DNA from: Bradyrhizobium sp. B124
Lineage (GTDB): Bacteria > Pseudomonadota > Alphaproteobacteria > Rhizobiales > Xanthobacteraceae
Assembly (NCBI RefSeq): GCF_038967635.1
Contig: NZ_CP152413.1
Span: 3,286,001 to 3,350,000, forward strand
Direction of reading: 5' to 3'
DNA: 64,000 bases
The notes under the pieces are model-generated. The model saw only the letters and a program-made list of their open reading frames with translations, was not told the origin of the DNA and ran no database searches. Each line of letters opens with the position of its first letter. Within the stretch, counting starts at the first letter, position 1. Of this stretch, positions 1 to 20,049 are shown one piece after another. Both the position numbers and the translations under genes were made by a program.

Positions 1-1373
1 ACTGAAACCCCCTGCTGCTCGACCCAGGTGTAGTAGCCGAGGTTGAAGACGGCGCGGCGCGAATGCTCCGTCAGCTCAACGACGTTGTCGGAGGCGGCGC
101 CGAGCAGGCAGGCGCCGAAGATTTCGGCGGCATTCACCTGATCAAGGCCACGCGCGTAGTGCTTCTCTTCAAACTGCCTGCGTTCGCTGCCGTACATGGA
201 AGCGCTGTCCGTCGCCACGGTGACAATGGCCTTTTCGGGCCCGTAGTTCATCTGCTTGGCCAGCTTGATCGAGGCGATGATGTTGGCGAGCCCGGAGATG
301 CCGATATGGTCAAAGGCGCGCACCAGCGCGGGTTCGAGACCGCGGCGCGTCTCGAGATAGTCCCGGCCCGCCTTCGTGCCGAACAGTAGATTGAGCTGGT
401 CCGTGGTTCGGTCCGAGACCCCGACGACGAAGTCGAGGTTCATGACATTGTGAACGAGCGGGATGTGCTTGTCGCCGATCCCCTGAATGTTGTGCTCGCC
501 ATAGCCATTGTTGAGCATCGTCGGGCATTCGAGCGCCTCGACGGCGACGACTTTCGAGCCCCAGCGTCTCTTGAGAAAATCCCCCGCGGCGATCGTCCCC
601 GACGACCCGGTTGCCGAGACGAAGGCCGCCAATTCGTGGTTATCGTCTTGATTGAACGCCTTGAAGGCATCTTCCGCTGCGCGCCCCGTGCATTCATAGT
701 GGATGAGATAGTTCGAGAACGATGAGAACTGGTTGAGAATGACGTTGCTGTCGTCGCGCCTGAGCTCCGCGCACTTGTCGTAGATTTCCTTGACGTTGCT
801 CTCGGTACCGGGCGTCCGGATGATGTCGGCCGGATCCGTCACCCACTTCTCGAGCCATTCGAAGCGCTCGCGGCTCATCCCTTCGGGTAAGACGGCAACG
901 CCGCGACAGCCGAGGATCCGCGAAACGGCGACACCGCCACGACAGTAATTGCCGGTAGAAGGCCAGACAGCCTTCTGTTTGGATGGATCGAAGCGCCCGG
1001 TCACGAGCTGCTCGATCAAGGCGGCATAGGCCGGCAGGACCTTGTGCGCGCCGATCATCGGAAAGCGATCGCCGAGCAACACGATGATCTTGGCATCGAC
1101 GCCGGAGATCTCCTTTGGCAGCACGATATGGCCCGGCACCAGGTCCCTGCCCCTGCGGTCTTCCGCATTGTACCAGTGCATGCGCCAGAGGTTCGCGGCG
1201 CTCGGCTCATCCGGCCCGACCGCCGCAATGTCCTCCCACACCCTGGCTGACGGAAGCGGTGGATGCGCGAGCTGCGAGAAGGTCGGCAGCTTCAGGTTAA
1301 GTTTGCGCGCTTGCGCCGCGGCTTGCCGCCAGCCCTTCCTGTCGACGACATTCGGCTCGATTACAAACGCCAT
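1..1373 (-). CDS. PLP-dependent fold-type II enzyme (cysteine synthase-like), 3' end cut by window edge
   Basis: Reading the minus strand from ATG 1373 gives an uninterrupted frame of about 457 codons that runs off the window at position 1, so the C-terminus is missing. The protein begins MAFVIEPNVVDRKGW. It carries a Schiff-base lysine context, IGAHKVLPAY (Lys111), a phosphate/substrate loop STGNYCRGG and a glycine-rich ATGSSGT motif. These are typical of the tryptophan-synthase-beta/cysteine-synthase superfamily. It starts 44 bp after the fbiC stop on the same strand and is probably the last known gene of the pxpA-F420 operon. The exact reaction cannot be assigned: cysteine-synthase-like beta-replacement, or a beta-elimination lyase acting on an amino acid, both fit. 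Its position beside F420 genes and opposite a diaminopropionate lyase suggests amino-acid side-chain catabolism (inference). Confidence 0.8.
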   Translation of the reverse strand, partial: MAFVIEPNVVDRKGWRQAAAQARKLNLKLPTFSQLAHPPLPSARVWEDIAAVGPDEPSAANLWRMHWYNAEDRRGRDLVPGHIVLPKEISGVDAKIIVLLGDRFPMIGAHKVLPAYAALIEQLVTGRFDPSKQKAVWPSTGNYCRGGVAVSRILGCRGVAVLPEGMSRERFEWLEKWVTDPADIIRTPGTESNVKEIYDKCAELRRDDSNVILNQFSSFSNYLIHYECTGRAAEDAFKAFNQDDNHELAAFVSATGSSGTIAAGDFLKRRWGSKVVAVEALECPTMLNNGYGEHNIQGIGDKHIPLVHNVMNLDFVVGVSDRTTDQLNLLFGTKAGRDYLETRRGLEPALVRAFDHIGISGLANIIASIKLAKQMNYGPEKAIVTVATDSASMYGSERRQFEEKHYARGLDQVNAAEIFGACLLGAASDNVVELTEHSRRAVFNLGYYTWVEQQGVS

Positions 1374-1417
1374 TTCCAATCATCCCTGTTGAATCTCACG
1401 GCCTCGCCCCGGGTCCT

Positions 1418-3823
1418 CTAGCACCCCGCGGATCGCATGCCCGTGCTGGTCTGCTGCTCATGGACCGCGTCAAATGAACGCTGCCTCCGAACGTCATCCG
1501 CCACGCCATACGTCGTCGTGCGCTGACGCGGCACACGGCCTGCCGAAATGATGATCGATTCCAGCGCCTGCGGCGTCATTTCCTGGCCGTGCGAGGCGCC
1601 GGCCGACCGCGAGATGCTCTCATCCATCAGTGTGCCGCCGAGGTCGTTGACGCCGGCCGAAAGGCAGTGCCGCAACCCCTCCGGTCCCATCTTGACCCAG
1701 GATGCCTGGATATTGGTGATGTGCGGGTTGAGGACGAGGCGCGACACCGCATGCATCAAGACCGCCTCGCGGAATGTCGGCCCCGGTCGCGCCCGGCCTT
1801 TGAGATAGACCGGCGCTTCCATGTGAACGAACGGCAACGGCACGAGCTCGGTAAATCCGCCGGTCTCCGCCTGCAAGCGCCGCAGCCGGAGCAGGTGCCG
1901 CGCCCAATGGTCGTAACGCTCGATATGGCCGAACATGATGGTGGCCGTCGATCGGAGCCCGATCGAGTGCGCCGTGCGCATGACGTCGAGCCACTGCTGG
2001 GTCCTGATCTTGTCCGCGCAGAGCGTCTCGCGCACCTCGTCGTCGAGGATTTCAGCGGCCGTTCCCGGCAGGGTGCCCAACCCGGCCGCTTTCAGCTCCA
2101 GCAGGAATTCGGCGACCGAAATACCCAGCGTGTGTGCCCCTTGATGGATCTCGAGCGGCGAGAACGCATGGAGATGCATGGCCGGGACGGCGCCCTTCAC
2201 GGCCCGACAGACATCCAGGTACTTCTGCCCCGTATAGGAAGGATGGATGCCGCCCTGCATGCACACCTCGGAGGCGCCGCGGTCCCACGCCTCGGTGACC
2301 CGCTGCGCGACTTCGGACATTTCGAGGTCGTAGGGCCGGCCCCGCAGGTTCTCGCTCATCTTCCCCTTCGAGAAGGCGCAGAACTGGCATTTGAAGGAAC
2401 AGATGTTGGTGTAGTTGATGTTGCGGCATACGACGTAGGACACCACGTCGCCGTTGACGCTGCTCCGCAATTCGTCGGCCGCCCGGCAGACGCTGGTAAA
2501 GTCGCGCTCGTGAGCGCGGAACAGCCTGACGATCTCGCCCTCCGAAAGCTCATCGCCGCGCTGGGCCTTGGCAATGACGGACATGACTTCGCTGCCGTGC
2601 GCGGTGCGCGGTGCGGATTTCAGCCATCCGAGCTCGCGCGATGGCAGCCCGCCGATGTGGCCGGGATGCCAGTCGTCGCTGCGCGGGAATCCATCGCCGT
2701 CGATGCGGTCGAGGACCGACTTCAGCAGCTTGTTGTCGAGCCAGCGCGAGGGATAGCGTGCGAAGCTCGGATAGATCGGCAGCCGCTTCTCGAGCCGCTT
2801 GCCGGTTGACCGCGTTGCAGCCTCCAGGAGCCGCAGATGCGGCCATGGTGCTTCGGGATTGACGTGGTCCGGCGTGACGGGCGAGACGCCACCCCAATCG
2901 TTGATCCCTGCCGCAACGACGCGCCCCAAGGCTGCCGGGCTGAGGTTCGGCGGCGCCTGAATGTTCATCTCCGGCTCGAATATCAGGCGAGCGACAGCGA
3001 TGGTCCAGAGATGATCGTCCACGGAGGGCGCGGGTGCATCGGCCATGCGCGTCCCGACCTTTGGCCGGAAGTTCTGGACGATGATCTCCTGCAGATGGCC
3101 ATGCGCATCGTTCAGGTCCCGCAGCGCGAGCAATGCATCGATCCGTTCGGCCCTGGTCTCCCCGATGCCGATCAGGATTCCGGATGTGAACGGAATGGCC
3201 TGCTCACCGGCAGTCTTGATTGTCTGAAGCCTGACGGCAGGCACCTTGTCCGGCGATCCGAAGTGGGGGCCGCCCTTCGCGCAAAGCCGGTCGGACGCGG
3301 ACTCCAGCATGATGCCCTGCGAGACCGATACCTTGCGCAGCATGGCAAGGTCGAGCTCGCTCATGATCCCGGGATTGACGTGAGGGAGCAGGCCAGTTTG
3401 CTCGAACACAGCCCTGGCGACTTCGGCGAGATACGACAGCGTGGATTCGTGGCCGAGCCTTGTCAGCTCCTCACGCGCGACGCGGTAGCGAAGCTCGGGC
3501 TTGTCGCCGAGCGTAAACAGCGCCTCATGACAGCCGGCCTCCTTGCCGGCCCTGGCGATCGCGACCGCTTCCTCGACCGAGAGATACGGCTTGACGTTCG
3601 AACGCGGCGCGTGAGCGAACGTGCAGTAGTGACAGACATCGCGGCAAAGCTGGGTGAGCGGGATGAACACCTTGGGCGAATAGGTGATGACATCACCGTG
3701 CGCGGCATCCCTTCGCCTGGCGGCGGCCGTCAGGAGTTCGTCGATGTCAGCAAGATCGATGAGCTCATAGGCTTCGCTTCGGGACAGGCGACGATCGAAC
3801 GGGAGATTCAAGACGGACGTCAT
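1418..3823 (-). CDS. fbiC: FbiC, fused CofG-CofH: 7,8-didemethyl-8-hydroxy-5-deazariboflavin (Fo) synthase
   Basis: An 801-residue fusion of two radical-SAM enzymes that together make the deazaflavin chromophore Fo from tyrosine and 5-amino-6-ribitylamino-uracil. The N-terminal CofG half has the CxxxCxxC cluster motif CRDVCHYC (Cys60, 64, 67). The C-terminal CofH half has CSFKCQFC (Cys475, 479, 482). Both 4Fe-4S/SAM sites are intact. The length and domain order match actinobacterial FbiC, whereas archaea usually encode two separate proteins. The start ATG (3821-3823) shares one base with the cofC stop, which indicates translational coupling. This is the committing step of F420 synthesis. Confidence 0.97.
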   Translation of the reverse strand: MTSVLNLPFDRRLSRSEAYELIDLADIDELLTAAARRRDAAHGDVITYSPKVFIPLTQLCRDVCHYCTFAHAPRSNVKPYLSVEEAVAIARAGKEAGCHEALFTLGDKPELRYRVAREELTRLGHESTLSYLAEVARAVFEQTGLLPHVNPGIMSELDLAMLRKVSVSQGIMLESASDRLCAKGGPHFGSPDKVPAVRLQTIKTAGEQAIPFTSGILIGIGETRAERIDALLALRDLNDAHGHLQEIIVQNFRPKVGTRMADAPAPSVDDHLWTIAVARLIFEPEMNIQAPPNLSPAALGRVVAAGINDWGGVSPVTPDHVNPEAPWPHLRLLEAATRSTGKRLEKRLPIYPSFARYPSRWLDNKLLKSVLDRIDGDGFPRSDDWHPGHIGGLPSRELGWLKSAPRTAHGSEVMSVIAKAQRGDELSEGEIVRLFRAHERDFTSVCRAADELRSSVNGDVVSYVVCRNINYTNICSFKCQFCAFSKGKMSENLRGRPYDLEMSEVAQRVTEAWDRGASEVCMQGGIHPSYTGQKYLDVCRAVKGAVPAMHLHAFSPLEIHQGAHTLGISVAEFLLELKAAGLGTLPGTAAEILDDEVRETLCADKIRTQQWLDVMRTAHSIGLRSTATIMFGHIERYDHWARHLLRLRRLQAETGGFTELVPLPFVHMEAPVYLKGRARPGPTFREAVLMHAVSRLVLNPHITNIQASWVKMGPEGLRHCLSAGVNDLGGTLMDESISRSAGASHGQEMTPQALESIIISAGRVPRQRTTTYGVADDVRRQRSFDAVHEQQTSTGMRSAGC

Positions 3824-4515
3824 CAGAACAGCCTCACGGGGACGGGATGGTCGTCGCTGCCGAAGCGCTCGGCAATCTTGAGCTCATCTAGAAACGAACC
3901 TGTCGTTCCGAGGTTTTGCGACGAGATCAGATACGGACCAAAATCGATCGGGCAATCGATGTCCTTGCCGATGCCATGGGACTTGAACACGCTGCAGCTC
4001 AGCTGCCGCTGCCGCGCCAGGGCGCGGTGGGCGCGGAAACTCTCTTCGCCAAACCGAGGCTCCAGCATGTCGGGCGACCGCATCGCCAGGGCATTTGTGC
4101 CACCGTCGTAAAGCGCGGGTACGAGCACGATCGGCGTGTGGTCCAGCAACCGGATGACGTGTTCGAAGTCCTCCGGACGGGCAAACGGAATATCGGCGGG
4201 CACGACAAGAACCCGCCGCCCGTACGGTTGGAACGCATCGAGGCCACGCTGCACCGCGGCATTGACGCCGGTCTCGACGTCATCGAAGATCATGGCCGCG
4301 TCGAAGCGCTTGGCGATCGCAAACGCTTCCGGATCGGCGCTCACCACGGCGATGCCGGCCAGCGCGCGCGTATCCCGCAGGTTTCCGAGAACATCGCACA
4401 GCATGGCTTGCGCCAGCTTTGTGCGCTCGGTCGCCACCAGGATGTCGCCCAGCCTGCTCTTTGCTTGACTGAACCGTTTGACAGGCACCAGGGCCCAGGT
4501 TTCGGAATCGTCCAT
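3823..4515 (-). CDS. cofC: CofC, phospholactate (or PEP/3PG) guanylyltransferase
   Basis: About 230 residues beginning MDDSETWALVPVKRF. The N-terminal VPVK...AKSRL pattern is the nucleotidyltransferase signature of CofC/FbiD. The enzyme activates a 3-carbon phospho-acid with GTP for transfer to Fo by CofD. A longer frame opens upstream at 4557, but ATG 4515 is preferred: it has a GCGGAG ribosome-binding sequence, lies 8 bp after the cofD stop, and places the conserved VPVK motif near the N-terminus. Whether the substrate is 2-phospholactate, phosphoenolpyruvate or 3-phosphoglycerate cannot be read from the sequence alone. It sits between cofD and fbiC in a tightly packed operon. Confidence 0.92.
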   Translation of the reverse strand: MDDSETWALVPVKRFSQAKSRLGDILVATERTKLAQAMLCDVLGNLRDTRALAGIAVVSADPEAFAIAKRFDAAMIFDDVETGVNAAVQRGLDAFQPYGRRVLVVPADIPFARPEDFEHVIRLLDHTPIVLVPALYDGGTNALAMRSPDMLEPRFGEESFRAHRALARQRQLSCSVFKSHGIGKDIDCPIDFGPYLISSQNLGTTGSFLDELKIAERFGSDDHPVPVRLF

Positions 4516-4523
4516 CGCTCCGC

Positions 4524-5462
4524 TCAGCTGTTTAGTCGATCGAGAAATCGGAGACACTCGCGTGCCAACTGAACACGCTCATCCTTCGAGCGCATGATCG
4601 TGTTCGTCACATGCACGGGAATGCCGATCGCATCGGCGTCGGCCTGGTCCTCGCGATCCATCACCAGACCATCGAGGAAGCCATAGTGCCTGACAATCGA
4701 GGCGCAGTTTGTCGCGACGCCGAGCTCGTTCATGATCTTTGCGGTCGGCCCCTTGATGGCGCGGCCGCCGACCAGCGGCGAGATTGCGACGATGGAGGCC
4801 TTGGTCGCATCCAGGGCCGCGCGGATACCGGGTACAGCCAGGATCGGATCGATGCTGAGATACGGGTTCGACGGACAGACGATGATGGCATCGGCGGCGC
4901 CGATGGCCCGCAATGCGGCGCTGGTCGCCGTTCCACCGCTGGGGCTCTGGAATTCGATCTTCCTGACCTCGGGCCGCGCCTGCAGCTCGACGAAATAGCG
5001 TTGAAATGCGAGCTTCTGATCGGCCGTCACGACGATCGTCGCAAACGGATCGTCGGTCATCGGCAGGATGCTCGCCTCAATGCCGAGCTGCGATGCAATC
5101 CTGCCCGTGAAATCGGTCAAGGTCACGCCGGCGCTCAGCGCGCGCGAGCGCAGGACGTGCATGGCAAGATCGCGGTCTCCCAAGCGAAACCATGTCTCGC
5201 CGTTCAGGCCGCCGAGCGCCTCCATGAAGTTCCAGCTTTCGCCGGCTCGTCCCCAGCCGCGCTCTTCGTCGGCAAGCTCGCCCAGCGTATAGACCACCGT
5301 GTCGATGTCCGGTGAGATCGTGAGGCCAAGATGCTCGAAGTCGTCGCCTGTGTTGACGATGACGGCGAGCTTGGCGCCCAGCAGGCGATTGAGGCCATAG
5401 GCAAGCTTGGCGCCTCCGACTCCGCCGCAAAGCGCAACAACGTTGAGGTCAGCGCCACTCAT
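4524..5462 (-). CDS. cofD: CofD/FbiA, 2-phospho-L-lactate transferase
   Basis: 312 residues. It transfers the phospholactyl (or enolpyruvyl/glyceryl) phosphate from the GDP-activated donor to Fo, giving F420-0 or its analogue. The N-terminal Rossmann-like motif CGGVGGAKLAYGLNRLL, NTGDDFEHLGL and the later DIDTVVYTLG...ERGWGR block are family hallmarks. Full length for the family. The start ATG overlaps the cofE stop by 4 bp (ATGA), so translation is probably coupled. Confidence 0.96.
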   Translation of the reverse strand: MSGADLNVVALCGGVGGAKLAYGLNRLLGAKLAVIVNTGDDFEHLGLTISPDIDTVVYTLGELADEERGWGRAGESWNFMEALGGLNGETWFRLGDRDLAMHVLRSRALSAGVTLTDFTGRIASQLGIEASILPMTDDPFATIVVTADQKLAFQRYFVELQARPEVRKIEFQSPSGGTATSAALRAIGAADAIIVCPSNPYLSIDPILAVPGIRAALDATKASIVAISPLVGGRAIKGPTAKIMNELGVATNCASIVRHYGFLDGLVMDREDQADADAIGIPVHVTNTIMRSKDERVQLARECLRFLDRLNS

Positions 5463-6232
5463 CGGAACATGTCCTGGCTCTTGGGTCGCGCGAGCGCGGC
5501 CGCGGGTGAGACCGGTCCATCAAGCGTGAGGCCACGGACGAGGATGATCGGCATGCCCTCGCCCGCTTGCCCCATCAGGAGCGAGGCGGCGCCGGCGATC
5601 TCATCGGCGATGGCAACTTCAGTGACGCGCATCGCCCGGCCAAACATGTCTGGAACACCAATTTGGCTCAGCAACGAGGGAATGCCGGCAGCGCCGATCG
5701 CCACGCCGACGACACCATTGCGCCAGGGACGGCCGAAACTGTCGTTGATGATGATTCCAAGATCGAGGTCGCCGGCTGCGTCCAGCGCGATCTTCAGCCT
5801 CTGCGCTGATCCGTCGGGATCTTTGGGCAGCAGCAGGACGCGCTCTTCGCCTTCACGGTGTTCGATGTTCGATTGATCGATGCCGGCGTTGGCCATGACG
5901 AAGCCGAGCCGGTGCGCGGCGATGACGACGTTCGGCCGTGTCTTGACGACCTCCGCGGATTCGCGCAGCACGACCTCGAGGAAGCGCGGGTCCTTGCCGA
6001 CCGTCGCCGCGAGTTCGAGCGCCTCCGGCGACGGCTCGACGTCGCTCAGCCGAACGTACCGCCCTTCCGATTTCGAGACGATTTTCTGCGCAATGACGAG
6101 GATGTCGCCCCGCTGCAGCTCGAGAGACATCCCGGCCAGGCTCTGCCTGATGAGCGCGGCAAGATCCTCGCCCGGCTCGACGCGCCGAATGTCCTGCAGG
6201 GCGATGTATTCGACTCGCGTCCCCACAGGCAT
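5459..6232 (-). CDS. cofE: CofE, coenzyme F420-0:L-glutamate ligase, stand-alone
   Basis: 257 residues. It is a GTP-dependent ligase that adds gamma-linked glutamates to F420-0. Family segments visible include RPGEDL-like VEPGEDLAALI near the N-terminus, DILVIAQKIVSKSEGR, and NDSFGRPWRNGVVGVAIG, which is the characteristic CofE/FbiB signature. The protein ends after the ligase domain. The C-terminal nitroreductase-like domain that mycobacterial FbiB uses to reduce dehydro-F420-0 is absent. It starts 3 bp after the reductase gene upstream and overlaps cofD by 4 bp. Confidence 0.95.
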   Translation of the reverse strand: MPVGTRVEYIALQDIRRVEPGEDLAALIRQSLAGMSLELQRGDILVIAQKIVSKSEGRYVRLSDVEPSPEALELAATVGKDPRFLEVVLRESAEVVKTRPNVVIAAHRLGFVMANAGIDQSNIEHREGEERVLLLPKDPDGSAQRLKIALDAAGDLDLGIIINDSFGRPWRNGVVGVAIGAAGIPSLLSQIGVPDMFGRAMRVTEVAIADEIAGAASLLMGQAGEGMPIILVRGLTLDGPVSPAAALARPKSQDMFR

Positions 6233-6235: not shown

Positions 6236-6895
6236 TCAGGTACCCGGGGTAGCGGACAGGCCGGTGATGCGGATGCCCGCGCCGGGCACCTTGTAGCGTC
6301 GATTGATCCCGATCAGCACGGATGTCAGCGCCTCGGCTGCCGCCGAGTTTGCCAGCACGCCGCCGTCGATGCCTGCGGATGCAACTTCATTCGCGAGACC
6401 GATGACGACGTCGCGCGCCGCCTTGTCGTCGCCAAAGACCAGAACGTCGCAATCCGCCCGGCTGCCCTGGTGCAGCTTGGTCGCGCCCACATTGTGGAAG
6501 GCGGAGACGACCCGCACGCCGGGTCCGAGCAACTGCTGCGCGATCTGCGCGGCCGAGCCGGCGGACGGAAGCTGGACCACGGACACCTTCGGCGGCACCA
6601 GCGGGACCGCGGCATCCACGACGATCTTGCCCTGAACCACGTCCTTGACTTCGTTCAGCGTCGCATCATGGCTCGCGAACGGCACGGCAACGACCACGAT
6701 GTCGGCAGCCCGCGCGGCGGCGGAATTGCCGTCGCCCGCAACGTCGCCGGTCATGGTCTCCGCCGCGCTCCTGGCCTTCTCTGCGGAGCGTGAACCGAGA
6801 ATGACTTTGTAACCGGCCGCAAGCCAGCATTTCGCGAGGCCGGATCCCAAGTCACCGGTTCCTCCAAGGATGGCAATCGTCGGTTTCGTGTTCAT
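6236..6895 (-). CDS. fno: NADPH-dependent F420 reductase (Fno/NpdG family)
   Basis: 219 residues, starting MNTKPTIAILGGTGDLGSG. The GGTGDLGSGLA dinucleotide loop and following GSRS (NADPH 2'-phosphate recognition) match F420:NADPH oxidoreductase. The enzyme moves hydride between NADPH and F420. In this context it would supply F420H2 to the LLM oxidoreductase at 16.0-17.0 kb, as NADPH:F420 reductase does in the picrate-degradation gene sets of actinobacteria (established for that system, inferred here). It sits between pxpA (21 bp gap) and cofE (3 bp gap), so cofactor synthesis and cofactor reduction share one transcript. A generic NADP oxidoreductase fold is the alternative, but the operon context makes F420 the likely partner. 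Confidence 0.92.
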   Translation of the reverse strand: MNTKPTIAILGGTGDLGSGLAKCWLAAGYKVILGSRSAEKARSAAETMTGDVAGDGNSAAARAADIVVVAVPFASHDATLNEVKDVVQGKIVVDAAVPLVPPKVSVVQLPSAGSAAQIAQQLLGPGVRVVSAFHNVGATKLHQGSRADCDVLVFGDDKAARDVVIGLANEVASAGIDGGVLANSAAAEALTSVLIGINRRYKVPGAGIRITGLSATPGT

Positions 6896-6916: not shown

Positions 6917-7693
6917 TTAGTCGAGGGGCATTTCGGTGAGCGGCACGAGCTTGACGCCGGCCTTCTCGAGGCCCTCCCGCACCGCACGAGCCGTGGCGAC
7001 GCCCGTGGGCTCGTCGCCATGGACGCACAGCGAGTGGACCTTGCATGTGATCTTCTTGCCGTTGCGGGAGGTGATGGTGTTGTTCAGCACCATATCGAGC
7101 ACCTGCCGGGTGGCGACCGCCGCGTCCTTGATGACCGAGCCCGCGATCTTGCGCGATGTCAGATTGCCGTCGTCGTCGTACTGGCGATCGCAGAAGCCTT
7201 CGATTGCGACGGGCAGTCCGAGCTTGCGGCCGGCTTTCTCCATCTCGGACCCAGCGAGAGCCACATAGATGATGCGCGGATCGACGGCCTTGATGGCGCG
7301 GCCGATGGCCAGCGCGTATTCAGCGTCTTCGGCGGCCATGTTGTTGAGCGCGCCGTGCGGCTTGAGGTGGGTGACCCGCTCGCCTTCGTAGGCCGCCATC
7401 GCCTGCAGCGCGCCAATCTGATAGGCGACCATGTATTCGAGGTCGTCGGGGCGCATATCGATGCGCCGACGTCCGAAACCCCAGAGATCGTTGAAACCGG
7501 GATGAGCACCGATCGTGACGCCGAGGCGCTTGGCTTCGCGCACGACGTTGCGCATCACCCGCGGGTCACCGGCGTGAAAGCCGCAGGCGATATTGGCCGA
7601 TCCGATGATCTTGAGGATTCCGGCATCGTCACCGACGTCGTAGGCACCGAACCCTTCGGCCATGTCGGCGTTCAAGTTGATCGATATGGTCAT
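6917..7693 (-). CDS. pxpA: LamB/YcsF family protein (5-oxoprolinase subunit A-like), PxpA
   Basis: 258 residues with the LamB/YcsF signature: NLNADMAEGFGAYDVGDD at the N-terminus, ANIACGFHAGDP, and SLCVHGDEP near the C-terminus. PxpA works with PxpB and PxpC to open 5-oxoproline with ATP. Older lamB-type members are tied to lactam use. Neither pxpB nor pxpC occurs in the window, so this copy may act on another cyclic amide or rely on partners elsewhere. It is the first gene of the F420 operon, with a GAGGTG ribosome-binding site just upstream and an operator-containing promoter at 7714-7742. Confidence 0.9.
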   Translation of the reverse strand: MTISINLNADMAEGFGAYDVGDDAGILKIIGSANIACGFHAGDPRVMRNVVREAKRLGVTIGAHPGFNDLWGFGRRRIDMRPDDLEYMVAYQIGALQAMAAYEGERVTHLKPHGALNNMAAEDAEYALAIGRAIKAVDPRIIYVALAGSEMEKAGRKLGLPVAIEGFCDRQYDDDGNLTSRKIAGSVIKDAAVATRQVLDMVLNNTITSRNGKKITCKVHSLCVHGDEPTGVATARAVREGLEKAGVKLVPLTEMPLD

Positions 7694-7713: not shown

Positions 7714-7742
7714 GCTATAATGTCCTATCATTAGTAAGACAA
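7714..7742 (-). promoter_or_regulatory. Promoter of the pxpA-F420 operon with dyad operator (site 1)
   Basis: On the minus strand a TTGTCT -35 box (7737-7742) and a TATAGC -10 box (7714-7719) are 17 bp apart. The spacer holds a dyad with arms TGTCCTA (7721-7727) and TAAGACA (7735-7741). Its minus-strand core, ACTAATGATAG, recurs at the other promoters of the region, so this is a candidate binding site for the GntR-family regulator encoded at 9.3-10.1 kb. Confidence 0.6.
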
Positions 7743-12145: not shown

Positions 12146-14577
12146 GCCGGCAACCCTTCTGCCAGTTCGGGCGCCCTCTCCTTGCGGCGCTCGGCTGCGG
12201 CCCGAATGGCCTCGAGGACACGCCGTGGCGTCATTGGTGTGTGCAAGACCTGGGCCCCAAGAGGCCGCAATGCGTCATTGACCGCGTTGCCGATTGCCCC
12301 GGGAGGCGCAATGGCACCGCCCTCGCCGATGCCTTTGACACCGAACTCCGTATAGGGCGCCAACGTCTCCATGTGGCCGAGCTTGGGCGCCGGCACCTCG
12401 GTCGGGCCCGGCAACAGATAGTCGGCAAAGGTCGATGCGAGCGGCTGCCCCGACGTGTCAAAGTTCATCTCTTCATACATTGCGGTGCCGATGCCTTGCG
12501 CCAGCCCGCCATAGATTTGCCCATCGACGACCATGGGGTTGATCAGCTGGCCGCCGTCTTCGACGACCACGTAGTCGATCAGCTCGATATCGCCCAACTC
12601 CGGATCGACGGCGACCACCGCGATATGGGTCGCGTAGCTGAACGTCCCGGAATCGCGCGCCGGCTTGTAGCCGATGGTGACCTCCAGGCCCCTCGGATCG
12701 ACCGTTGCCGGCAGATCCTGCGGCCGGCGATACCAGGTGTGCGCGATTTCATCGATCTTCACGCTGTTCGACGGACCGACGACCGCGCCGTTCTCGAGTT
12801 TGACATTCTCGACTTCGGTCTGCAGCAGATGCGCGCCAATCCCCTTGATGAGCTTGGCGAGTTCACGCGAGGCCGTCGCAACGGCGCCGCCGGACATCAC
12901 CGCGCAGCGCGATCCCCAGCTGCCTGTCGAGTACGGCGTGTACTCGGTGTCGCCGTGAACCAGCTTGATGCGCGCGATGTCGATCCCAAGGATCTCGTGC
13001 GCGACCTGCGGAAGCGTGGTCTCCATGCTCTGACCATGCGAATGCGCGCCGATGCGAAGCTCGAGGCCGCCGTCGGGGGTCATGCGGGCGGTCGCCTGTT
13101 CGTGTCCCGGAACCATCGGGATGCCCCAGCCTGCGTAGACCGACGTGCCGTGCGCACCCTGCTCGCAATAGACTGACAGCCCGACCCCGATCAGCCGGCC
13201 GTCCGGCTCGCCCTTCTTCTGGCGCGCGCGGAGGCCCGCCAAATCGATCTTTGCCAGAGCCTGTCGCAGCGATTCCGGATAATCTCCGCTGTCGAAATGC
13301 TTCTTGGTGATGTTGTCGAACGGCATCTGCTCCGGCCGCACCAAATTCTTGAGCCGCACCTCGTACGGCTCAAGACCGCATTCGTGTGCGATCGCGTCCA
13401 TCATCAGCTCGATCGCGTAGCAAACGCCGGTGCGGGCAACGCCGCGGTAAGGCAGGATCGGACATTTGTTGGTGGACACCGACCAGGTGCGGCAGCGATA
13501 GGACGGGAAATCGTATGGCCCGGGCAAAATGCTGGCGATCTGCGCAGCCTCCAGACAGGCAGAAAACGGATACGACGAATAGGCGCCGGAATCGACCGAG
13601 GCCTCGCACTCGACACCGCGCAGTTTCCCATCGCGATCGGCGTAGACGGTGATGTTATAATGATGCTCGCGGCAATTCGCGCCCGCCGTCAAATGCTCGC
13701 GACGATCTTCGATCCAACGCACGGGATAGCCGCAGCGCATGGCGAGCCAACCCAGACAAACATCCTCCGTCAGCACGATACCCTTGTAGCCGAAGCCGCC
13801 GCCGACATCGGGCGAGACGATGCGGATCTTCAGCTGCTCGAGATTGAGGCATTCCGATAGACCGTTGCGCACGATGTGCGGTTGCTGATTGCCGGTGTAG
13901 AGGACGAGCTGATCCATCCGCTTGTGCCAGACGGCAACCGTCCCGCGGCCTTCCATCGGCGCCATGCTCTGCCGCGCGGTCGATATCTCGCGCGTGATCT
14001 TGATCGGAGCGTCGTAGGCCGCTTCCATGTTGATGTCGACAAACGTCTCGAGGAAGACATTGTCGCCCCACTCTTCGTGCACCAGGGCCGAGTCCGGACG
14101 CCGCGCCAGCAGCATGTCATGCACGGCCGGCAATTCCTCGAAATCAACTTCGACCGCAGCTGCAATGTCCTCGGCTTCCGCGCGGCTATCGGCGACGCAC
14201 ATCGCGATCAATTCGCCGACCTGACGGACCTTCTCGAACGCGAGGATCGGCTGATCGGAAGGCTTGAAGCCCGGCAGTCCGGACACAGCGCGAATGGGAC
14301 GCGTATCGGCCGCGATATCCGACGCAATGAACACGCTGCTGCGGAGGTGCGGCGGGATACGGATATCCTTGATCCGCGCATGGGCAAGTGGACTACGGAC
14401 GAACGCAACGTCGCGCATGCCGGGCAAGCGAATATCGCCGACATATTCGCCTCGTCCACGGAGAAAGCGATCATCTTCCTTTCGGGAAACGGAAGCTCCA
14501 ACGCCCTGCTTTGCCACTCCGTCTCCCCTTTTGTCGTCGGTGTCCTGAGCGATCGACGGCTCGAACATCAAATTCAT
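12142..14577 (-). CDS. Xanthine dehydrogenase family molybdopterin-binding large subunit (CoxL-like)
   Basis: 811 residues. It is the catalytic subunit of a three-part Mo-hydroxylase that inserts oxygen from water into a C-H bond, often of an N-heterocycle or aldehyde. Glycine-rich pterin contacts are visible (DVGGGFGYKG near residue 257; GSWGSR; KGIGEGGAIAPP near the C-terminus, where the catalytic Glu of the GEGG motif sits). The loop that is AYxCSFR in true CO dehydrogenase is PYRGVART here (376-383) and has no cysteine, so CO oxidation is unlikely. First gene of the operon, after a terminator and an operator-bearing start region. The substrate is unknown; pathway context suggests a nitrogen heterocycle. 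Confidence 0.93.
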   Translation of the reverse strand: MNLMFEPSIAQDTDDKRGDGVAKQGVGASVSRKEDDRFLRGRGEYVGDIRLPGMRDVAFVRSPLAHARIKDIRIPPHLRSSVFIASDIAADTRPIRAVSGLPGFKPSDQPILAFEKVRQVGELIAMCVADSRAEAEDIAAAVEVDFEELPAVHDMLLARRPDSALVHEEWGDNVFLETFVDINMEAAYDAPIKITREISTARQSMAPMEGRGTVAVWHKRMDQLVLYTGNQQPHIVRNGLSECLNLEQLKIRIVSPDVGGGFGYKGIVLTEDVCLGWLAMRCGYPVRWIEDRREHLTAGANCREHHYNITVYADRDGKLRGVECEASVDSGAYSSYPFSACLEAAQIASILPGPYDFPSYRCRTWSVSTNKCPILPYRGVARTGVCYAIELMMDAIAHECGLEPYEVRLKNLVRPEQMPFDNITKKHFDSGDYPESLRQALAKIDLAGLRARQKKGEPDGRLIGVGLSVYCEQGAHGTSVYAGWGIPMVPGHEQATARMTPDGGLELRIGAHSHGQSMETTLPQVAHEILGIDIARIKLVHGDTEYTPYSTGSWGSRCAVMSGGAVATASRELAKLIKGIGAHLLQTEVENVKLENGAVVGPSNSVKIDEIAHTWYRRPQDLPATVDPRGLEVTIGYKPARDSGTFSYATHIAVVAVDPELGDIELIDYVVVEDGGQLINPMVVDGQIYGGLAQGIGTAMYEEMNFDTSGQPLASTFADYLLPGPTEVPAPKLGHMETLAPYTEFGVKGIGEGGAIAPPGAIGNAVNDALRPLGAQVLHTPMTPRRVLEAIRAAAERRKERAPELAEGLPA

Positions 14578-14726: not shown

Positions 14727-16004
14727 TTACCTGGCTGGGGCGGAATTGCACCAGTCGTAGATGCTGAGCGCCATGACCTTGATGGCCGTCAGGTAATCAT
14801 CGATCGACACATACTCGTCGTTCGCATGCATGACCGCCGTCGAACCGGGTCCGAAGATCACGGTCGGCGTATTCGCGTACTTGTTCAAGAACCGCGTGTC
14901 CGCCGCACCCTGGCGCCCCGAGATCGTGGGCTTCTTGCCAGTCACTTCGGTATAGACATCGCAGACGGTCTGCACGATCGGATGCTGGACCGGAATCTCC
15001 GAGGCCTCGGCGTCGTAGCCGACGAACTTCACCACGGGAGGATGGTCCTTCATCCAGGGATCCTGAGCCGCAACCTCGGCAATCTTCTTGACGAGGCTCT
15101 GCTTGACGCCCTCGTGGTCCTCGCTCGGAACCGTGCCGATCGATCCCTTCAGAACGGCGCTGGCCGGGAAGGCGCTCGGATAATTGCCGGCCTGGAAGCT
15201 GCCGATGATGCAGGGCAAGGAGTCGATGGCGCTCGGGTAGAGCGCGTGCTTGACGTTCGCAACGCGCTCGTCTTCCAGCTCCTGCACGGCTTTCACGATC
15301 TTGTTGCCGAGCTCGATGGCGCTGATGCCAAGGTAGCGCTGCTGGATACCGGCGGGTTTGCCTTCGATGTCGATCTGGAACCAGATACGCCCGATGCAAG
15401 CCGGCTGCACGAACAGGTCACTGGTCTCGCCGGAAATACCGGCATCCGCCTTGTATCCGCGGATGACAGTGTCGAGCGTGCCGTGTCCGCTGACTTCCTC
15501 GTCGATGACGATGTTGATCATGACATCGCCCTTCGGAGTGAGCCCAAGCTCCTTCAGGTACTGGACCGCGAGCACGTGGCTGGCAACGCCGCTCTTCATG
15601 TCGCACGAACCGCGGCCATAGATGCGCCCGTTCTTGATCGAAGCCGACCACGGATTGTCGCTCCATCCCTCGCCGTTGCCGACGGGGATCACGTCGGTGT
15701 GACCGTTGAGAAGCAGCGAGCGGCCGCCGCCGGTGCCTTTCAGGGTGGCAACGATATTGGGGCGATTCTCATAGCCGCGATCGACCGGGCGATAGCCGGG
15801 ATGCTTCTTCAGCTCGTCCCAATTGGTCTCCCACATGTCGACCTCGAGACCGACCTCGGTCAGGTAGCCGTGCATGTGCTTCTGGATCGCGGCTTCGTCG
15901 CCGGTCACGCTCGGGATCGCGACCATATCCTGGAGGAACTTGATCGCGTGATCCTTCGAAGCGTCGACCTTGTCGAGGATCTTCTTGCGTACGGGGTCTG
16001 TCAT
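14727..16004 (-). CDS. M20 metallo-deacylase (ArgE/DapE/YgeY-like)
   Basis: 425 residues. The zinc site is visible: GHTDVIP (His102, Asp104), GRGSCDMKSG (Asp135) and the catalytic pair DEE (Glu169-Glu170). Family members hydrolyse N-acyl or N-carbamoyl amino acids in the cytoplasm. The product could be 2,3-diaminopropionate for the DpaL lyase encoded nearby, as proposed for the E. coli ygeX-ygeY neighbourhood (inference). It follows the LLM gene by 36 bp and is the last gene before a clear terminator. Confidence 0.9.
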   Translation of the reverse strand: MTDPVRKKILDKVDASKDHAIKFLQDMVAIPSVTGDEAAIQKHMHGYLTEVGLEVDMWETNWDELKKHPGYRPVDRGYENRPNIVATLKGTGGGRSLLLNGHTDVIPVGNGEGWSDNPWSASIKNGRIYGRGSCDMKSGVASHVLAVQYLKELGLTPKGDVMINIVIDEEVSGHGTLDTVIRGYKADAGISGETSDLFVQPACIGRIWFQIDIEGKPAGIQQRYLGISAIELGNKIVKAVQELEDERVANVKHALYPSAIDSLPCIIGSFQAGNYPSAFPASAVLKGSIGTVPSEDHEGVKQSLVKKIAEVAAQDPWMKDHPPVVKFVGYDAEASEIPVQHPIVQTVCDVYTEVTGKKPTISGRQGAADTRFLNKYANTPTVIFGPGSTAVMHANDEYVSIDDYLTAIKVMALSIYDWCNSAPAR

Positions 16005-16040: not shown

Positions 16041-16994
16041 TTACTTGGCGCGCAGGCGCGGGATGATCTCACGCGCGATGGTCTCGACCTGGTCCGCCTG
16101 ATACTTGTACGGGACGAAGATGATCTTCTGGACGCCCAGCGCGATATGCTCGCGAAGCTGGGCGACGCACTCATCGACCGAGCCCATGATGGCGCTCTCG
16201 CGGCTGCAATCGCTGTGAGCCGGGAAATCCCACTCCTTGTTGAGCCAGTCCATCATGTCGGCTTCGACCGCCTGCCGTGATTTGCCGATCATGATCGGCA
16301 GCTGCGAGGCGTTCTTCAAAGTCGACGGATCCTTGCCGCCCTCCTTGGCGAAGTTGATGATCTTGTCCCAGGACTTCTTGAAGTCGGCGGGACGATAGAA
16401 GTAGGTCAGCCAGCCATCCCCGTTCAGAGCGGCGCGCTTCAGCACGGGATCGGCGTATCCGCCGATCAGCAGCGGAATTTGCGGCTGCGCCGGCTTGGGA
16501 TACATCACCGCCTTCGAAATGTTGTGGCGCATGTATTCGCCGGTCACCGACTCTTCGGTCCACAGCCGGCGCATGATCTCAAGATTTTCATCCATGATCT
16601 TGCCGCGCTTCTCGAAGGGAATGCCGAGCGCATCGAACTCGCGCTTGTACCATCCGGACGCCATGCCCATGATCAGGCGGCCTTCGGACAGCTGATCCAT
16701 GCTCGAGAGCTGCTTGGCGAGAGCCACCGCGTTACGGAGCGGCAGAACCAGGATGCCGGTGCCCATCTTGATCCGCTTCGTGCGCGCAGCAATGCCCGTC
16801 AGCGTCGTCAACGAATCGATGATCGGGAAGTTCGGATCGACGCCGAGGAGCATGTGATCCCAGACCCAGACCGAATCGTAGCCGAGCTCCTCGACCCGAA
16901 CGCCGTACTCGACGAGCGCCCGGGCGTTGGGCATTTCGGGATAGGCGGTGAAGTTGCGCGCGGCAATACCAAACGTGTTGGCGAGCGTGGTCAT
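16041..16994 (-). CDS. LLM-class F420-dependent oxidoreductase
   Basis: 317 residues of the bacterial luciferase-like TIM-barrel family. Visible blocks are YDSVWVWDHML near residue 40, GTGILVLPLRNAVALAKQLSS, LSEGRLIMGMASGW and IPLLIGGYADPVLKRAA. These match F420-using members such as N5,N10-methylene-tetrahydromethanopterin-reductase-like and hydride transferase enzymes. With a full F420 pathway and Fno in the same cluster, F420H2 is the probable cofactor. FMN remains possible because LLM enzymes use either. ATG 16994 is chosen over the TTG one codon earlier; GGAGA lies upstream. It would reduce, or oxidatively attack, the ring or imine of the unknown substrate (inference). Confidence 0.88.
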   Translation of the reverse strand: MTTLANTFGIAARNFTAYPEMPNARALVEYGVRVEELGYDSVWVWDHMLLGVDPNFPIIDSLTTLTGIAARTKRIKMGTGILVLPLRNAVALAKQLSSMDQLSEGRLIMGMASGWYKREFDALGIPFEKRGKIMDENLEIMRRLWTEESVTGEYMRHNISKAVMYPKPAQPQIPLLIGGYADPVLKRAALNGDGWLTYFYRPADFKKSWDKIINFAKEGGKDPSTLKNASQLPIMIGKSRQAVEADMMDWLNKEWDFPAHSDCSRESAIMGSVDECVAQLREHIALGVQKIIFVPYKYQADQVETIAREIIPRLRAK

Positions 16995-17021
16995 CAATAG
17001 ATCTCCGGACTTGGTGTAGCT

Positions 17022-17792
17022 TTAAGCGGTGAAGAGACGGTCGGGATCGAGCATCCGCAGCGTCTCGAGTTCGTGGTCGGTCGGCGGCGACGTGACGTGG
17101 AGGTTCTCGTCGAAGTCGAGCCTGAAGCCGGTATTGTCCTGTACTTCCTCGCGGCCGACGCCGGGATTGAGCGCGAGCACCTTGATGCGCCGGGTCCTGT
17201 CGTCGAAGCCGAACACGGCGAGCTCGGTAATCACGCGCCACATGCCGCCGCTCGGCAGGCCGGAGTCGCGCCGGCTGGTGCCGCCGCGAATGAACCCGGG
17301 GCTGGTGATGAAGTCGACCTTTTCGACGAAGCGCCGCTTCTCGTGCTTCATCGCGACGATCATGTTGGTCAGGCTGGAGATGTCATTGCCGCCGCCGGTA
17401 CCCGGCAGGCGCGTCTTCGGCTTGGCCGGGTCGCCGATGAACGACGAGTTCAGATTGCCGAACTGATCGATCTGGGCGCCGCCCATGAAGCCGACATCGA
17501 CGTAACCGCGCTGGAGCAGCAGCAGGACATCGGCGCTGCCGAGGACCATGTTGGCGCGCTTGGTGCAGCGCTGGTCGTTGGTCGACGGCGGCAATTTGCC
17601 CGGCTCGACGAAGGCGCCGACCACGCCGCCCTCGAACAGAATGGTCAGGGCTGGACAGCGGGTGCGCTGGGCCAGGGTTGCAGCGAGCAGCGGCACGCCG
17701 ATGCCGGCGAAGACCACCTGCCCGTCCTGCAGCTGGCGCGCGCTCAAGATCGCGAGAATTTCGCTTGCGGTGTAGCGCTGCGCCTCAGTCAT
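17022..17792 (-). CDS. CoA-transferase subunit B (glutaconate/3-oxoadipate CoA-transferase type)
   Basis: 256 residues from ATG 17792 (MTEAQRYTASEIL). It has the beta-subunit features FAGIGVPLLAATLAQ, LFEGGVVGA, where the family places its catalytic glutamate, and the PGTGGGNDISSL glycine loop. The 8-bp overlap with subunit A (ATGACTGA) supports this start over the longer frame to 17834. With subunit A it would move CoA between an acyl-CoA donor and a carboxylic acid made late in the pathway. Confidence 0.92.
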   Translation of the reverse strand: MTEAQRYTASEILAILSARQLQDGQVVFAGIGVPLLAATLAQRTRCPALTILFEGGVVGAFVEPGKLPPSTNDQRCTKRANMVLGSADVLLLLQRGYVDVGFMGGAQIDQFGNLNSSFIGDPAKPKTRLPGTGGGNDISSLTNMIVAMKHEKRRFVEKVDFITSPGFIRGGTSRRDSGLPSGGMWRVITELAVFGFDDRTRRIKVLALNPGVGREEVQDNTGFRLDFDENLHVTSPPTDHELETLRMLDPDRLFTA

Positions 17793-18750
17793 TGTAGATG
17801 CTCCTGCCCTTCTGCGTTGCCTCCAACACCTCATCCATGCCGATCAGCGAGAGATATTCGTTCCAGGACTTCGGGCTGTAAAAATAGCGGTCGAGATATT
17901 CCTGCATGCCCTTCACGGGATCCGCGTTGACCTGCGCGACATAGGCTTCCATGTGCCGCATCATCGGCTCATAGAGGCCGTAGCACTCGTGCGGCGCCGA
18001 TCCGTAGGGAACCTCGACCACGGCATCGACACAGAAGAACGGGATCTTGGTCTGGTCCGGCGCGCGCCGGATCTGGTCGTTCGAGACGATCCGCTCGGTC
18101 GTGAGGATCACGCTGTTGGCAGCGAGCGCGAGATCGATGTCCATGAATTGCAGGCCGTCGATCTGGGCGTTACCGTAGGGGTCGCAGCGCTGGACGTGGA
18201 TCAGCGCGACGTCGGGGTTGAGCGCGGGGACCAGCAGCAGCTTCTCGCCCGTGAACGGACAGTCGATCTGCTTGGCTTCGGGACGCTGACCAACGATATC
18301 CGACCCCAACATGGCGCGGGTCGGCAGGAACGGAACACCCATGCCGCCGGCGCGAAAGCGCATGCCGACAGCCATGTGGCTCCATTCCTCATAGCGCTTG
18401 CCGCCACTCTCCACGTGATGCCGCATCACCTTGGACAGGCCCCATAGAATACCTTGGGCGAACCAGCTGGTGACGACGTGGTTCGCGATGCCGGATCCGA
18501 ACACGAGGTCGCCGTCCGTCGAGACGATGCAGCGCGAAATCGAAAGGTCCTTGCGATGCTGGCGGATCAGCTCCCAGAGCAGCGCCATCGGCGTGCGGGA
18601 CATGGTCGACCCGCCAATACCCACTTTCATGCCGTCTTGGACGAAGCCTGCCGCTTCCTCAAGCGACACCACCTTTTCGCGCAGGCTGCGGTCGCGCTGC
18701 GCCATCTTCTCTCTGAGCCGCGTGTACGGCTCCACCAGGGTATCCGGCAA
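17785..18750 (-). CDS. CoA-transferase subunit A (glutaconate CoA-transferase type)
   Basis: 321 residues. Family motifs include VGIGGSTMSRTPMALLWELIR near residue 43, GADL-like STDGDLVFGSG, and PALNPDVALIHVQRCDPYGNAQIDG. Translation probably starts at TTG 18750, since AAGGAGG lies 5 bp upstream; an internal ATG (residue 16) is the alternative. First gene of a four-gene transcript: transferase A, transferase B, LLM oxidoreductase, M20 deacylase. Its promoter at 18821-18849 carries a strong dyad. Confidence 0.92.
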   Translation of the reverse strand: MPDTLVEPYTRLREKMAQRDRSLREKVVSLEEAAGFVQDGMKVGIGGSTMSRTPMALLWELIRQHRKDLSISRCIVSTDGDLVFGSGIANHVVTSWFAQGILWGLSKVMRHHVESGGKRYEEWSHMAVGMRFRAGGMGVPFLPTRAMLGSDIVGQRPEAKQIDCPFTGEKLLLVPALNPDVALIHVQRCDPYGNAQIDGLQFMDIDLALAANSVILTTERIVSNDQIRRAPDQTKIPFFCVDAVVEVPYGSAPHECYGLYEPMMRHMEAYVAQVNADPVKGMQEYLDRYFYSPKSWNEYLSLIGMDEVLEATQKGRSIYND

Positions 18751-18819: not shown

Positions 18820-18849
18820 TATGGTACTAATGTTAGTCCCATACGTCTA
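18820..18849 (-). promoter_or_regulatory. Promoter of the CoA-transferase operon with 24-bp dyad (site 4)
   Basis: A near-perfect palindrome covers 18820-18843. Its centre is ACTAATGTTAGT (18826-18837) and its outer arms are TATGG and CCATA. On the minus strand TAGACG (18844-18849) and TACCAT (18821-18826) are 17 bp apart, placing the dyad in the spacer as at pxpA. The core ACTAATGTTAG differs by one base from site 1. It could also control the divergent amidase gene. Confidence 0.6.
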
Positions 18850-19263
18850 GCAGAATCTTCGCAACGGCCGATCGTGACGGATTCGGTCTCCGCGATATGC
18901 CTTGGGTTTGCGATCGCCGGGCGCACAGTAAAACGACGAGCAATGCCTACCTTTGCAGCCTGGTCTTCCCGACTCTCCCGACTCTCGCTATCCGCTGTGC
19001 GAGCGGCCGGAGTTGCCGCAGTGCTGACCTGGTCAGCTCAGGATGCGAACTCGAAGCGACGGCATAAGGACCATAAGCCGATAGATAGGATGTCCTGCCC
19101 TGCATCACGGCCTTTGGCACAGATCATGCTTATGAACCAGCGTCGCTTTCGAGAGCGTCGCATGCAGCGCGCTGCTTCGATGGCGATCACCCGGTTGAAG
19201 CGAGCGCGTGGCGCGGCAGCGGGCGCACAGGCGTCAACAAGAACCAACAAGAGAGGATGGACC
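18850..19263. other. Non-coding stretch upstream of the amidase gene
   Basis: Frames cross this stretch, but none has a ribosome-binding site or recognisable protein. The only clear signals are the dyad at its left end and the GAGAGG ribosome-binding site (19251-19256) serving the amidase GTG start. Confidence 0.5.
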
Positions 19264-20049
19264 GTGGAGCATTATCTTACCTCGACACCAGATCATCTTC
19301 ATTGGGGACTGTGGGATGGTCGGCTCAGTCCCGTCATCAGAATTGCGTCTGGTGATCGGGTAACGATCGAAACGCTATCGGCCGAGCCGGATGAAGCGTT
19401 CGATCTCGTGAGCGACCTGGTCGAACCGCTTGGCTGCAGCGACATCCCCGCGTCCCACGGAGCCGCACCGCGGCTATTGACCGGACCGATCCACATCGAG
19501 GGCGCCGAACCGGGTGACGTGCTCGAGGTTCGGGTCCTCGATGTCCGCTTGCGATCGGACTGGGGTTGGAACATGAGGGCCCCGACGAGCGCTGCGCGGG
19601 AAACGTCATTGGACTTTTGCTGCCGGTATGTCCCGCTCGATCGCACGCGCAACATCGCGCGCCTGCCCTGGGGACGGGAGCTGAGGTTGTCGCCGTGCTT
19701 TGGCAACTTTGGTGTCGCGCCGCCGGCGAACTGGGACCCCCGCAAGCCGAACGAAGCGAATGGTTTCAGCGGGCGCATCGACAACAGGGATCTCGGCGTC
19801 GGATGCACCGCCTATTTCCCGATCTTCGTCGCAGGCGCATTGTTCTCGGCGGGTCATGGCCACGCGCTGCTGGACGATGGGGCTGCGCAGCTCTCCGCCA
19901 TCGAAACGGCGCTCGCCGGCACGTTCGAATTTCACATTCGCCGCAATCTGCATCTGGCGACCCCTCGGGTCGAGACCACATCCGCGTCGGCCAGCACATC
20001 GACCGTCAATGCGTTCACACCGCAAGGCCGCAGCCAACGCACGAACTAG
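19264..20049 (+). CDS. Acetamidase/formamidase family protein, C-terminally truncated
   Basis: 261 residues from GTG 19264, seven bp after GAGAGG. Family features: HWGLWDGRLSPVIRIASGDRV, the HGAAPRLLTGPIHIEGAEPGD metal-site segment, RELRLSPCFGNFGVAPP and FVAGALFSAGHGHALLDDG. The enzyme would release ammonia and formate or a short acid from an amide. The last part (TTSASASTSTVNAF onward) is low-complexity and does not resemble the family C-terminus, which normally runs on for several dozen residues. A frameshift or rearrangement next to the convergent TRAP gene is likely. It may still be functional or may be a decaying gene. Confidence 0.75.
   Translation: MEHYLTSTPDHLHWGLWDGRLSPVIRIASGDRVTIETLSAEPDEAFDLVSDLVEPLGCSDIPASHGAAPRLLTGPIHIEGAEPGDVLEVRVLDVRLRSDWGWNMRAPTSAARETSLDFCCRYVPLDRTRNIARLPWGRELRLSPCFGNFGVAPPANWDPRKPNEANGFSGRIDNRDLGVGCTAYFPIFVAGALFSAGHGHALLDDGAAQLSAIETALAGTFEFHIRRNLHLATPRVETTSASASTSTVNAFTPQGRSQRTN

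Follow-up and report, generated by a model that had tools for sequence, protein, structure and literature searches.

A palindrome shared by coenzyme F420 and putative catabolic operons in Bradyrhizobium sp. B124 and other Proteobacteria

Actinobacterial picrate and nitrophenol (npd) systems combine an NADPH:F420 reductase (Fno) with an F420-dependent hydride transferase of the luciferase-like monooxygenase (LLM) type in the degradation of nitroaromatics, in phyla where F420 is in general use. We analysed a 64,000-nucleotide stretch of the Bradyrhizobium sp. B124 genome (contig NZ_CP152413.1, positions 3,286,001 to 3,350,000; the window), whose positions 1-20049 hold a cluster of genes for F420 synthesis, F420 reduction and a putative catabolic pathway. 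The cluster resembles the npd systems in pairing Fno with an LLM protein of F420 type in presumed catabolism, and differs in that the cofactor genes lie inside the unit and that the companions are a Mo-hydroxylase, an M20 enzyme, a CoA-transferase and pyridoxal-phosphate (PLP) lyases. It also recalls the quinoline and nicotinate type of Mo-hydroxylase pathway, since the nearest solved relative of its molybdenum-cofactor (MoCo) subunit is quinoline 2-oxidoreductase (1t3q, 455.9 bits); those routes have a ring oxygenase, whereas none is named here and an F420-linked step is proposed instead.

The reductive uric acid pathway of E. coli and Clostridium, which uses flavoenzymes of the YgfK or PydA type, SsnA, HyuA and YgeW, is similar in its xanthine dehydrogenase (XDH)-type Mo enzyme, reductive dearomatisation, peptidase-family hydrolase (YgeY) and diaminopropionate ammonia-lyase (YgeX) (PMC12507026). 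In contrast, the available part of that article describes no F420 or CoA-transferase (PMC12507026), and no YgfK/PydA-type reductase, SsnA, HyuA or YgeW is named in positions 1-20049, nor are the first three in the annotated Sinorhizobium meliloti version of the cluster, the gene table of which is incomplete. A genome-wide association study (GWAS) of nodule competitiveness located k-mers in a 26-kb pSymA region of S. meliloti GR4, KH35c and KH46, for which it lists fbi genes, livF, PyrC, an M20 deacylase, PntAB, a caffeine-dehydrogenase-like subunit, GctAB, a luciferase-family protein, DpaL and GntR, and it calls for more attention to what F420 does in competition (PMC8407117). Judged by the LLM gene, the gene order and the listed functions, this region is evidently the same cluster; the GR4, KH46 and KH35c records carry the LLM gene and the gene order, as do further Sinorhizobium records. 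The parts of the GWAS paper available to us treat these functions separately and propose no operator, regulon or pathway (PMC8407117). Among the matches listed in the open-licence literature, we recognised no paper describing this pathway, operator or regulon. The sequence-only reading of the window, which knew of no described pathway with this gene set, agrees with this as to the pathway, although the gene set itself has evidently been reported. What is new here is the palindrome TACTA-N4-TAGTA shared by the F420 and pathway operons.

In the window, the F420 genes form the minus-strand run pxpA-fno-cofE-cofD-cofC-fbiC-PLP1, the pathway genes form the second run ctA-ctB-llm-m20-moL-moM-moS-gntR, and dpaL lies between the two on the plus strand. 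The palindrome, first suggested by reading the promoter regions, was found upstream of both the F420 and the pathway operons. The sites in the window are as follows.

7723..7736, no strand: operator-like palindrome with one mismatch, between pxpA and dpaL
7837-7851, no strand: weaker copy
18825..18838, no strand: operator-like palindrome TACTAATGTTAGTC, upstream of ctA

The LLM protein was used as a query against GTDB species genomes and retrieved 38 loci in other genomes, whose content was read by mapping the window proteins onto them and by clustering of open reading frames. The neighbourhood recurs, whole or in part, in these loci, so that chance adjacency is very unlikely. A matrix built from three sites of the B124 genome found close copies of the palindrome in most pathway loci. 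In the window region and the 38 loci together, the perfect palindrome occurs 34 times, and never with any other spacer of 0 to 9; with up to one mismatch there are 63 sites, compared with 0-12 at the other spacers, counts that are inflated by near-identical Bradyrhizobium copies, so that the distant families provide the independent support. No site was found in 12 control F420 loci. When two Sinorhizobium loci were added, the numbers rose to 36 perfect sites and 65 with up to one mismatch, against means of 0.27 and 5.2 for 89 other arm and gap combinations of the same letters. All but one of the 65 sites are found upstream of a cluster-gene match, at most 350 bp from where the match starts, and none lies inside a cluster gene. 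The best alternative, ATCAT-N4-ATGAT, gave 8 perfect sites and likewise 65 with up to one mismatch, 26 of which fall inside cluster genes. Counted by promoter (up to one mismatch, within the same 350 bp), a site precedes 28 of 31 testable F420 operons and 27 of 40 pathway operons.

Genome-wide, the strict form, TACTAWNNWTAGTA, was counted at 43 sites, spread over 26 of the 38 genomes (reversed pattern, 18), and 12 genomes are without it. By contig and position, 41 of the 43 are no further than about 23 kb from llm or cofE; of the others, one is elsewhere (G064) and one is unplaced (G068). Six F420-positive genomes with cof loci lacking the cluster contain no strict site (reversed pattern, 6). 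The same palindrome at both promoters indicates that cofactor synthesis and the pathway share an operator-like signal. The neighbouring GntR regulator would be the protein that reads it; a gntR homologue is present in 23 of the 38 loci and in none of the 12 control F420 loci. A looser form has four matches in the B124 genome, three of them the matrix seeds at the cluster. The fourth (G000:C1:3350379-3350393), just right of the window and 3' of a porin gene, is probably a chance match. In Methyloligella (L068), a perfect palindrome at 7918 stands before a stretch near the cluster (7974-9817) that by eye resembles a different, NitT/TauT-like ABC importer, which may serve as another route of uptake.

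The LLM gene and F420 synthesis also occur together. A cofE match is present in 36 of the 38 genomes carrying the LLM (35 over the cut-off, one fragment below it), and the two genomes lacking one are metagenome-assembled. In a sample of 297 genomes of the order, with the LLM counted at E values up to 1e-60, the LLM is found in 9 genomes and cofE in 40 (39 over the cut-off); all nine LLM genomes have cofE (Fisher p 6e-9, or 5e-8 without the B124 genome). In eight of the nine, about 12 kb at most separates the two genes; in G305 they are far apart. F420 is accessory and not housekeeping here, as cofE occurs in 7 of the 35 other Bradyrhizobium genomes and in those 40 of 297 of the order, one of the 40 being broken. 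Two counts weigh against F420 being bound to this pathway: 31 of the 40 cofE-positive genomes of the order are without this LLM, and six of the seven cofE-positive congeners have other cof neighbours, only G004 showing the cluster. F420 in relatives is therefore usually not tied to the pathway; it is not exclusive to it in this group, and most F420-positive relatives are without it.

These results partly support the sequence-only reading as a whole, which had taken F420 to be made on demand together with the pathway that uses it. The genes are conserved together across families, the promoters share a specific palindrome, as co-induction would need, and F420 is accessory; the induction itself is presumed. 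The two counts above speak against the strict form of that reading, with F420 tied to the pathway. A tree of FbiC, comprising 32 rows picked by hand from the loci retrieved (22 pathway, 10 control), required 3 changes of the pathway label, compared with 8.7 in shuffles. A single clade (99/97) unites 16 of the 22 pathway rows, from several families, without any of the controls; the other six (L038, AlphaMAG, Cupriavidus and three Ancylobacter) lie elsewhere, L038 beside two Bradyrhizobium controls. The F420 genes therefore follow the module rather than the genus in most cases, but not in all.

Other F420 loci of the genus vary. The congener G015 has three separate cofE loci with differing neighbours on one contig (G015:C1; L015, L016 and L017), hinting at repeated acquisition of F420 synthesis, as a module, within a single genome. 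Three other Bradyrhizobium genomes (L019, L020 and L023) carry F420 genes among many LLM genes, without the palindrome, and in G243 (C156:5867-6608) cofE is interrupted by stops, as in a decaying F420 locus.

The putative catabolic module appears to have spread among rhizobia and other Proteobacteria. Its hosts include Kaistia, Labrys, Aminobacter, Nitratireductor, Phyllobacterium, Chelativorans, Afipia and Ancylobacter, the betaproteobacterium Cupriavidus, and Sinorhizobium, where it lies on symbiotic megaplasmids; all 12 plasmid records matching the LLM are from Sinorhizobium and typed conjugative. Eleven loci (L034, L035, L040-L042, L044, L047, L049, L051, L052 and L064) share the order fno-cofEDC-fbiC-PLP1-ctA-ctB-llm-m20-pntAA/AB/B-moL-moM-moS, in most cases followed by gntR and, where the sequence reached that far, preceded by liv genes. 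In Aminobacter (L078), liv is not directly in front of the cluster. The transhydrogenase genes pntAB occur in 12 of the 38 loci, between m20 and moL in 11 of those. Bradyrhizobium, Afipia, Ancylobacter and Cupriavidus have rearranged versions, and other loci are broken off at contig ends. In Afipia, llm is followed by a serine dehydratase gene and pxpBC adjoins the cluster; the Cupriavidus version has an additional biotin-dependent acyl-CoA carboxylase and a carbonic anhydrase.

The pSymA annotation of S. meliloti R28 lists a dihydroorotase, liv permeases and ATPases, NpdG, CofD, CofC, CofH, a CoA-transferase pair, an F420-dependent LLM, an ArgE/DapE deacylase, transhydrogenase subunits, xanthine-dehydrogenase-family subunits, a binding protein and GntR; dpaL and cofE are present by similarity. 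The R28 cofE (L073, 9145-9916) is matched in two overlapping pieces and is absent from the gene table, possibly through a frame break, unlike the single cofE matches in GR4, KH46 and KH35c. PLP1 and pxpA were not found in the Sinorhizobium stretches examined, nor was pxpA in the Pseudohoeflea stretch read. Both carry, close to the cluster, a gene of dihydroorotase type (L073, 3324-4367; L081, 7572-8696), whose product may be a substitute ring-opening enzyme.

Profile and structure matches placed the genes where the sequence-only reading had them, with small corrections. Its tight minus-strand operon of cofE-cofD-cofC-fbiC, the reductase gene and pxpA was confirmed, the genes overlapping or separated by no more than 21 bp. 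The CysK-like PLP enzyme PLP1, missing from its list, lies 38 bp after fbiC and extends the run, within which gaps are at most 38 bp and several genes overlap. The fbiC, cofC, cofD, cofE and reductase products all exceed curated NCBIfam cut-offs, and the frames of the four synthesis genes are open. The genes of this run are as follows.

1..1379, minus strand: PLP1, CysK-like PLP enzyme (PF00291), last gene of the run; runs off the window, 498 aa in full
1418..3823, minus strand: fbiC (CofG-CofH fusion), FO synthase (NF006687, 1147.7 bits)
3823..4557, minus strand: cofC (TIGR03552, 151.3 bits; cut-off 105)
4524..5462, minus strand: cofD (TIGR01819, 290.2 bits, over the cut-off)
5459..6232, minus strand: cofE, ligase domain only (TIGR01916, 264.7 bits; in Pfam only PF01996)
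6236..6895, minus strand: npdG/fno, NADPH:F420 reductase (TIGR01915, 183.8 bits; cut-off 149.8)
6917..7693, minus strand: pxpA (LamB/YcsF), first gene of the run (NF003814, 346.9 bits)

The closest solved structures to PLP1 are cysteine-synthase relatives (73 bits at best), its homologues bear generic names only among the 120 matches listed, and in many other loci it precedes ctA. The window CofE is without an FbiB-type reductase domain; with a ligase-only CofE, the form of F420 derived from phosphoenolpyruvate needs an additional reductase, and the form derived from 3-phosphoglycerate does not. Of the 5-oxoprolinase PxpABC, the window cluster holds pxpA only, and three PF02626 genes lie elsewhere in the B124 genome. 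The pxpB and pxpC families adjoin the cluster in Afipia (L069) and, by similarity, in Cupriavidus (L072).

The pathway genes and the adjacent amidase-like gene are as follows.

7842..9137, plus strand: dpaL-like PLP ammonia-lyase (NF006058, 522.5 bits, over the cut-off)
9277..10053, minus strand: GntR/HutC-type (UTRA) regulator, candidate operator reader (PF00392 and PF07702, over the cut-off)
10089..11309, minus strand: Mo-hydroxylase 2Fe-2S subunit with C-terminal CoxG domain (PF01799, PF06240)
11306..12145, minus strand: Mo-hydroxylase FAD subunit (PF00941)
12142..14577, minus strand: Mo-hydroxylase MoCo subunit (PF02738, PF20256)
14727..16004, minus strand: M20 (ArgE/DapE-type) amidohydrolase (TIGR01910, 272.2 bits; cut-off 217.6)
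16041..16997, minus strand: LLM oxidoreductase, proposed F420H2-dependent reductase (TIGR03619, 192.3; cut-off 166.9)
17022..17834, minus strand: ctB, CoA-transferase subunit B, GctB-like (1poi_B, 164.5 bits; ILFEGG)
17785..18750, minus strand: ctA, CoA-transferase subunit A, GctA-like (1poi_A, 151 bits)
19293..20049 (about), plus strand: FmdA/AmdA amidase-like gene, doubtful member (PF03069)

The strand of the dpaL-like gene corrects the sequence-only reading; its product matches the diaminopropionate ammonia-lyase of PDB 4d9g well (266.7 bits). The LLM protein passes TIGR03619 (F420_Rv2161c subfamily). Its predicted structure (mean predicted local distance difference test score 89.2) matches F420 enzymes and luciferases equally, a comparison that does not part F420 from FMN; the cofactor assignment therefore rests on context and TIGR03619, and suggests that the LLM uses F420, not FMN. 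In CtB, a Glu aligns with the ESG motif of 1poi_B, the Glu of which we take to be the catalytic residue of the CoA-transferase, and it is kept in 40 of 40 homologous stretches, some overlapping (39 ILFEGG, 1 MEGG). IpdAB and AibAB presumably lack this Glu. Because it is retained in CtB, we judged it less likely that CtAB opens rings by hydrolysis or decarboxylates in the manner of these enzymes. The "amidase" of the sequence-only reading is present, but its frame loses similarity and ends about 80 residues before the end of its L039 homologue, so that, by sequence, it may be a remnant lacking the C-terminal part.

The cluster may extend leftward beyond the window. Contig positions 3277695-3285650 (L014) hold a branched-chain-type ATP-binding cassette (ABC) importer (sbp-livHMGF-like, 69-70% identity to the S. 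meliloti genes) and transhydrogenase genes (pntAA/pntAB/pntB-like, 45-64%), with Pfam support for pntAA, pntB, livH and sbp.

On gene content, conservation, co-occurrence and the common promoter motif, we consider that the cluster is probably an inducible regulon for catabolism which also produces the redox cofactor that it needs. The likeliest function is N-heterocycle catabolism with an F420H2-dependent reductive step; the kinship of the MoCo subunit to quinoline 2-oxidoreductase points to an N-heteroaromatic substrate. The ABC importer just left of the window would take up this substrate, and the GntR/HutC regulator would be released from TACTA-N4-TAGTA operators at the promoters of the importer, of pxpA-fno-cofEDC-fbiC and of ctA-ctB-llm-m20-Mo-hydroxylase. 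FbiC, CofC, CofD and CofE would then build F420, and Fno would keep it reduced with NADPH, which in many versions an in-cluster proton-driven transhydrogenase (pntAB) would supply. The Mo-hydroxylase would add oxygen beside the ring nitrogen, the LLM would reduce the ring with F420H2, PxpA-type, PyrC-type or other cyclic-amide hydrolases would open and deacylate it together with the M20 enzyme, the PLP lyases would remove ammonia, and the GctAB-like transferase would pass the acid fragment to CoA. This putative order of hydroxylation, ring reduction, hydrolysis, deacylation and deamination is modelled on the reductive urate pathway; we infer it, and likewise that GntR reads the operators, that induction takes place, that the LLM works with F420, and the substrate class. 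Isonicotinate via citrazinate, pyrazinoate, imidazole carboxylates, beta-substituted alanines and urate are not separable as substrates, and we choose none. As a bolder and distinctly tentative extension, the cluster might be a mobile catabolic module with an F420 supply of its own, in which operators under GntR control would turn on import, F420 synthesis, charging from NADH through NADPH to F420H2 and the F420H2-dependent reductive dearomatisation of an N-heterocycle from plants or soil, and which would add to nodule competitiveness where it lies on symbiotic megaplasmids.

The direction of the LLM reaction could be reversed, with the LLM oxidising the substrate with F420, like Fgd and Adf, and Fno and the transhydrogenase passing the electrons to NADP and NAD. 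The top fold matches of the LLM include Fgd and Mer, and Fno is reversible in principle. We nevertheless regard oxidation as unlikely, while taking it seriously: a transhydrogenase driven by the proton-motive force, as found in many clusters, fits the supply of NADPH, and F420 reduction is given as the dominant direction of bacterial Fno in the available part of a review (PMC8498797). The presence of Fno, and of pntAB in those 12 loci, supports a reductive role. That the LLM is instead an FMN-dependent oxygenase, with F420 serving other enzymes of the cell and the genes being mere neighbours, would agree with the inseparable FMN and F420 folds and with other LLM-like genes in the B124 genome (25 first-look candidates, of which 7 were scored, with one match at the strict limit). 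The co-occurrence with cofE in 36 of 38 and nine of nine genomes, the common operator-like motif and the lack of a flavin reductase among the identified cluster genes make this very unlikely.

We find it equally hard to credit that the cluster makes a small molecule and that this product underlies the advantage in nodules found by the GWAS. Biosynthetic routes do also employ PLP enzymes, CysK-like ones included. The association with competitiveness (PMC8407117) would suit such a product, but an importer with a binding protein, ammonia-lyases, hydrolases, a CoA-transferase and, in some versions, a serine dehydratase speak for catabolism, and no nonribosomal peptide synthetase, polyketide synthase or exporter is among the identified genes. 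Finally, the unit could be co-regulated by another protein reading the palindrome, for example of the Lrp/AsnC type, since gntR was not found in 15 of the 38 stretches and a gene of the Lrp type is located close to dpaL in three loci (L067, L069 and L071) and close to importer genes in L081. However, many of the gntR-less stretches end at contig or retrieved-region limits, gntR homologues (48-51% identity) lie further out in Afipia (L069) and Cupriavidus (L072), and the Lrp-type gene occurs in few loci; we give this reader a small chance.

A 2021 review counts the reason why Proteobacteria make F420 among the open questions, and its available part reports only trace F420 in two tested Alphaproteobacteria (PMC8498797). 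A conserved unit in which one operator-like signal joins synthesis and reduction of the cofactor to an importer and a probable client enzyme offers a direct test of this question, and an F420-on-demand system could be moved between laboratory hosts. An inducible regulon would explain the patchy occurrence of F420 in Alphaproteobacteria and perhaps also the trace amounts, if the cells were grown without inducer. It also provides a specific hypothesis to account for the S. meliloti competitiveness locus, so far without explanation, and, if true, would show what such bacteria need F420 for.

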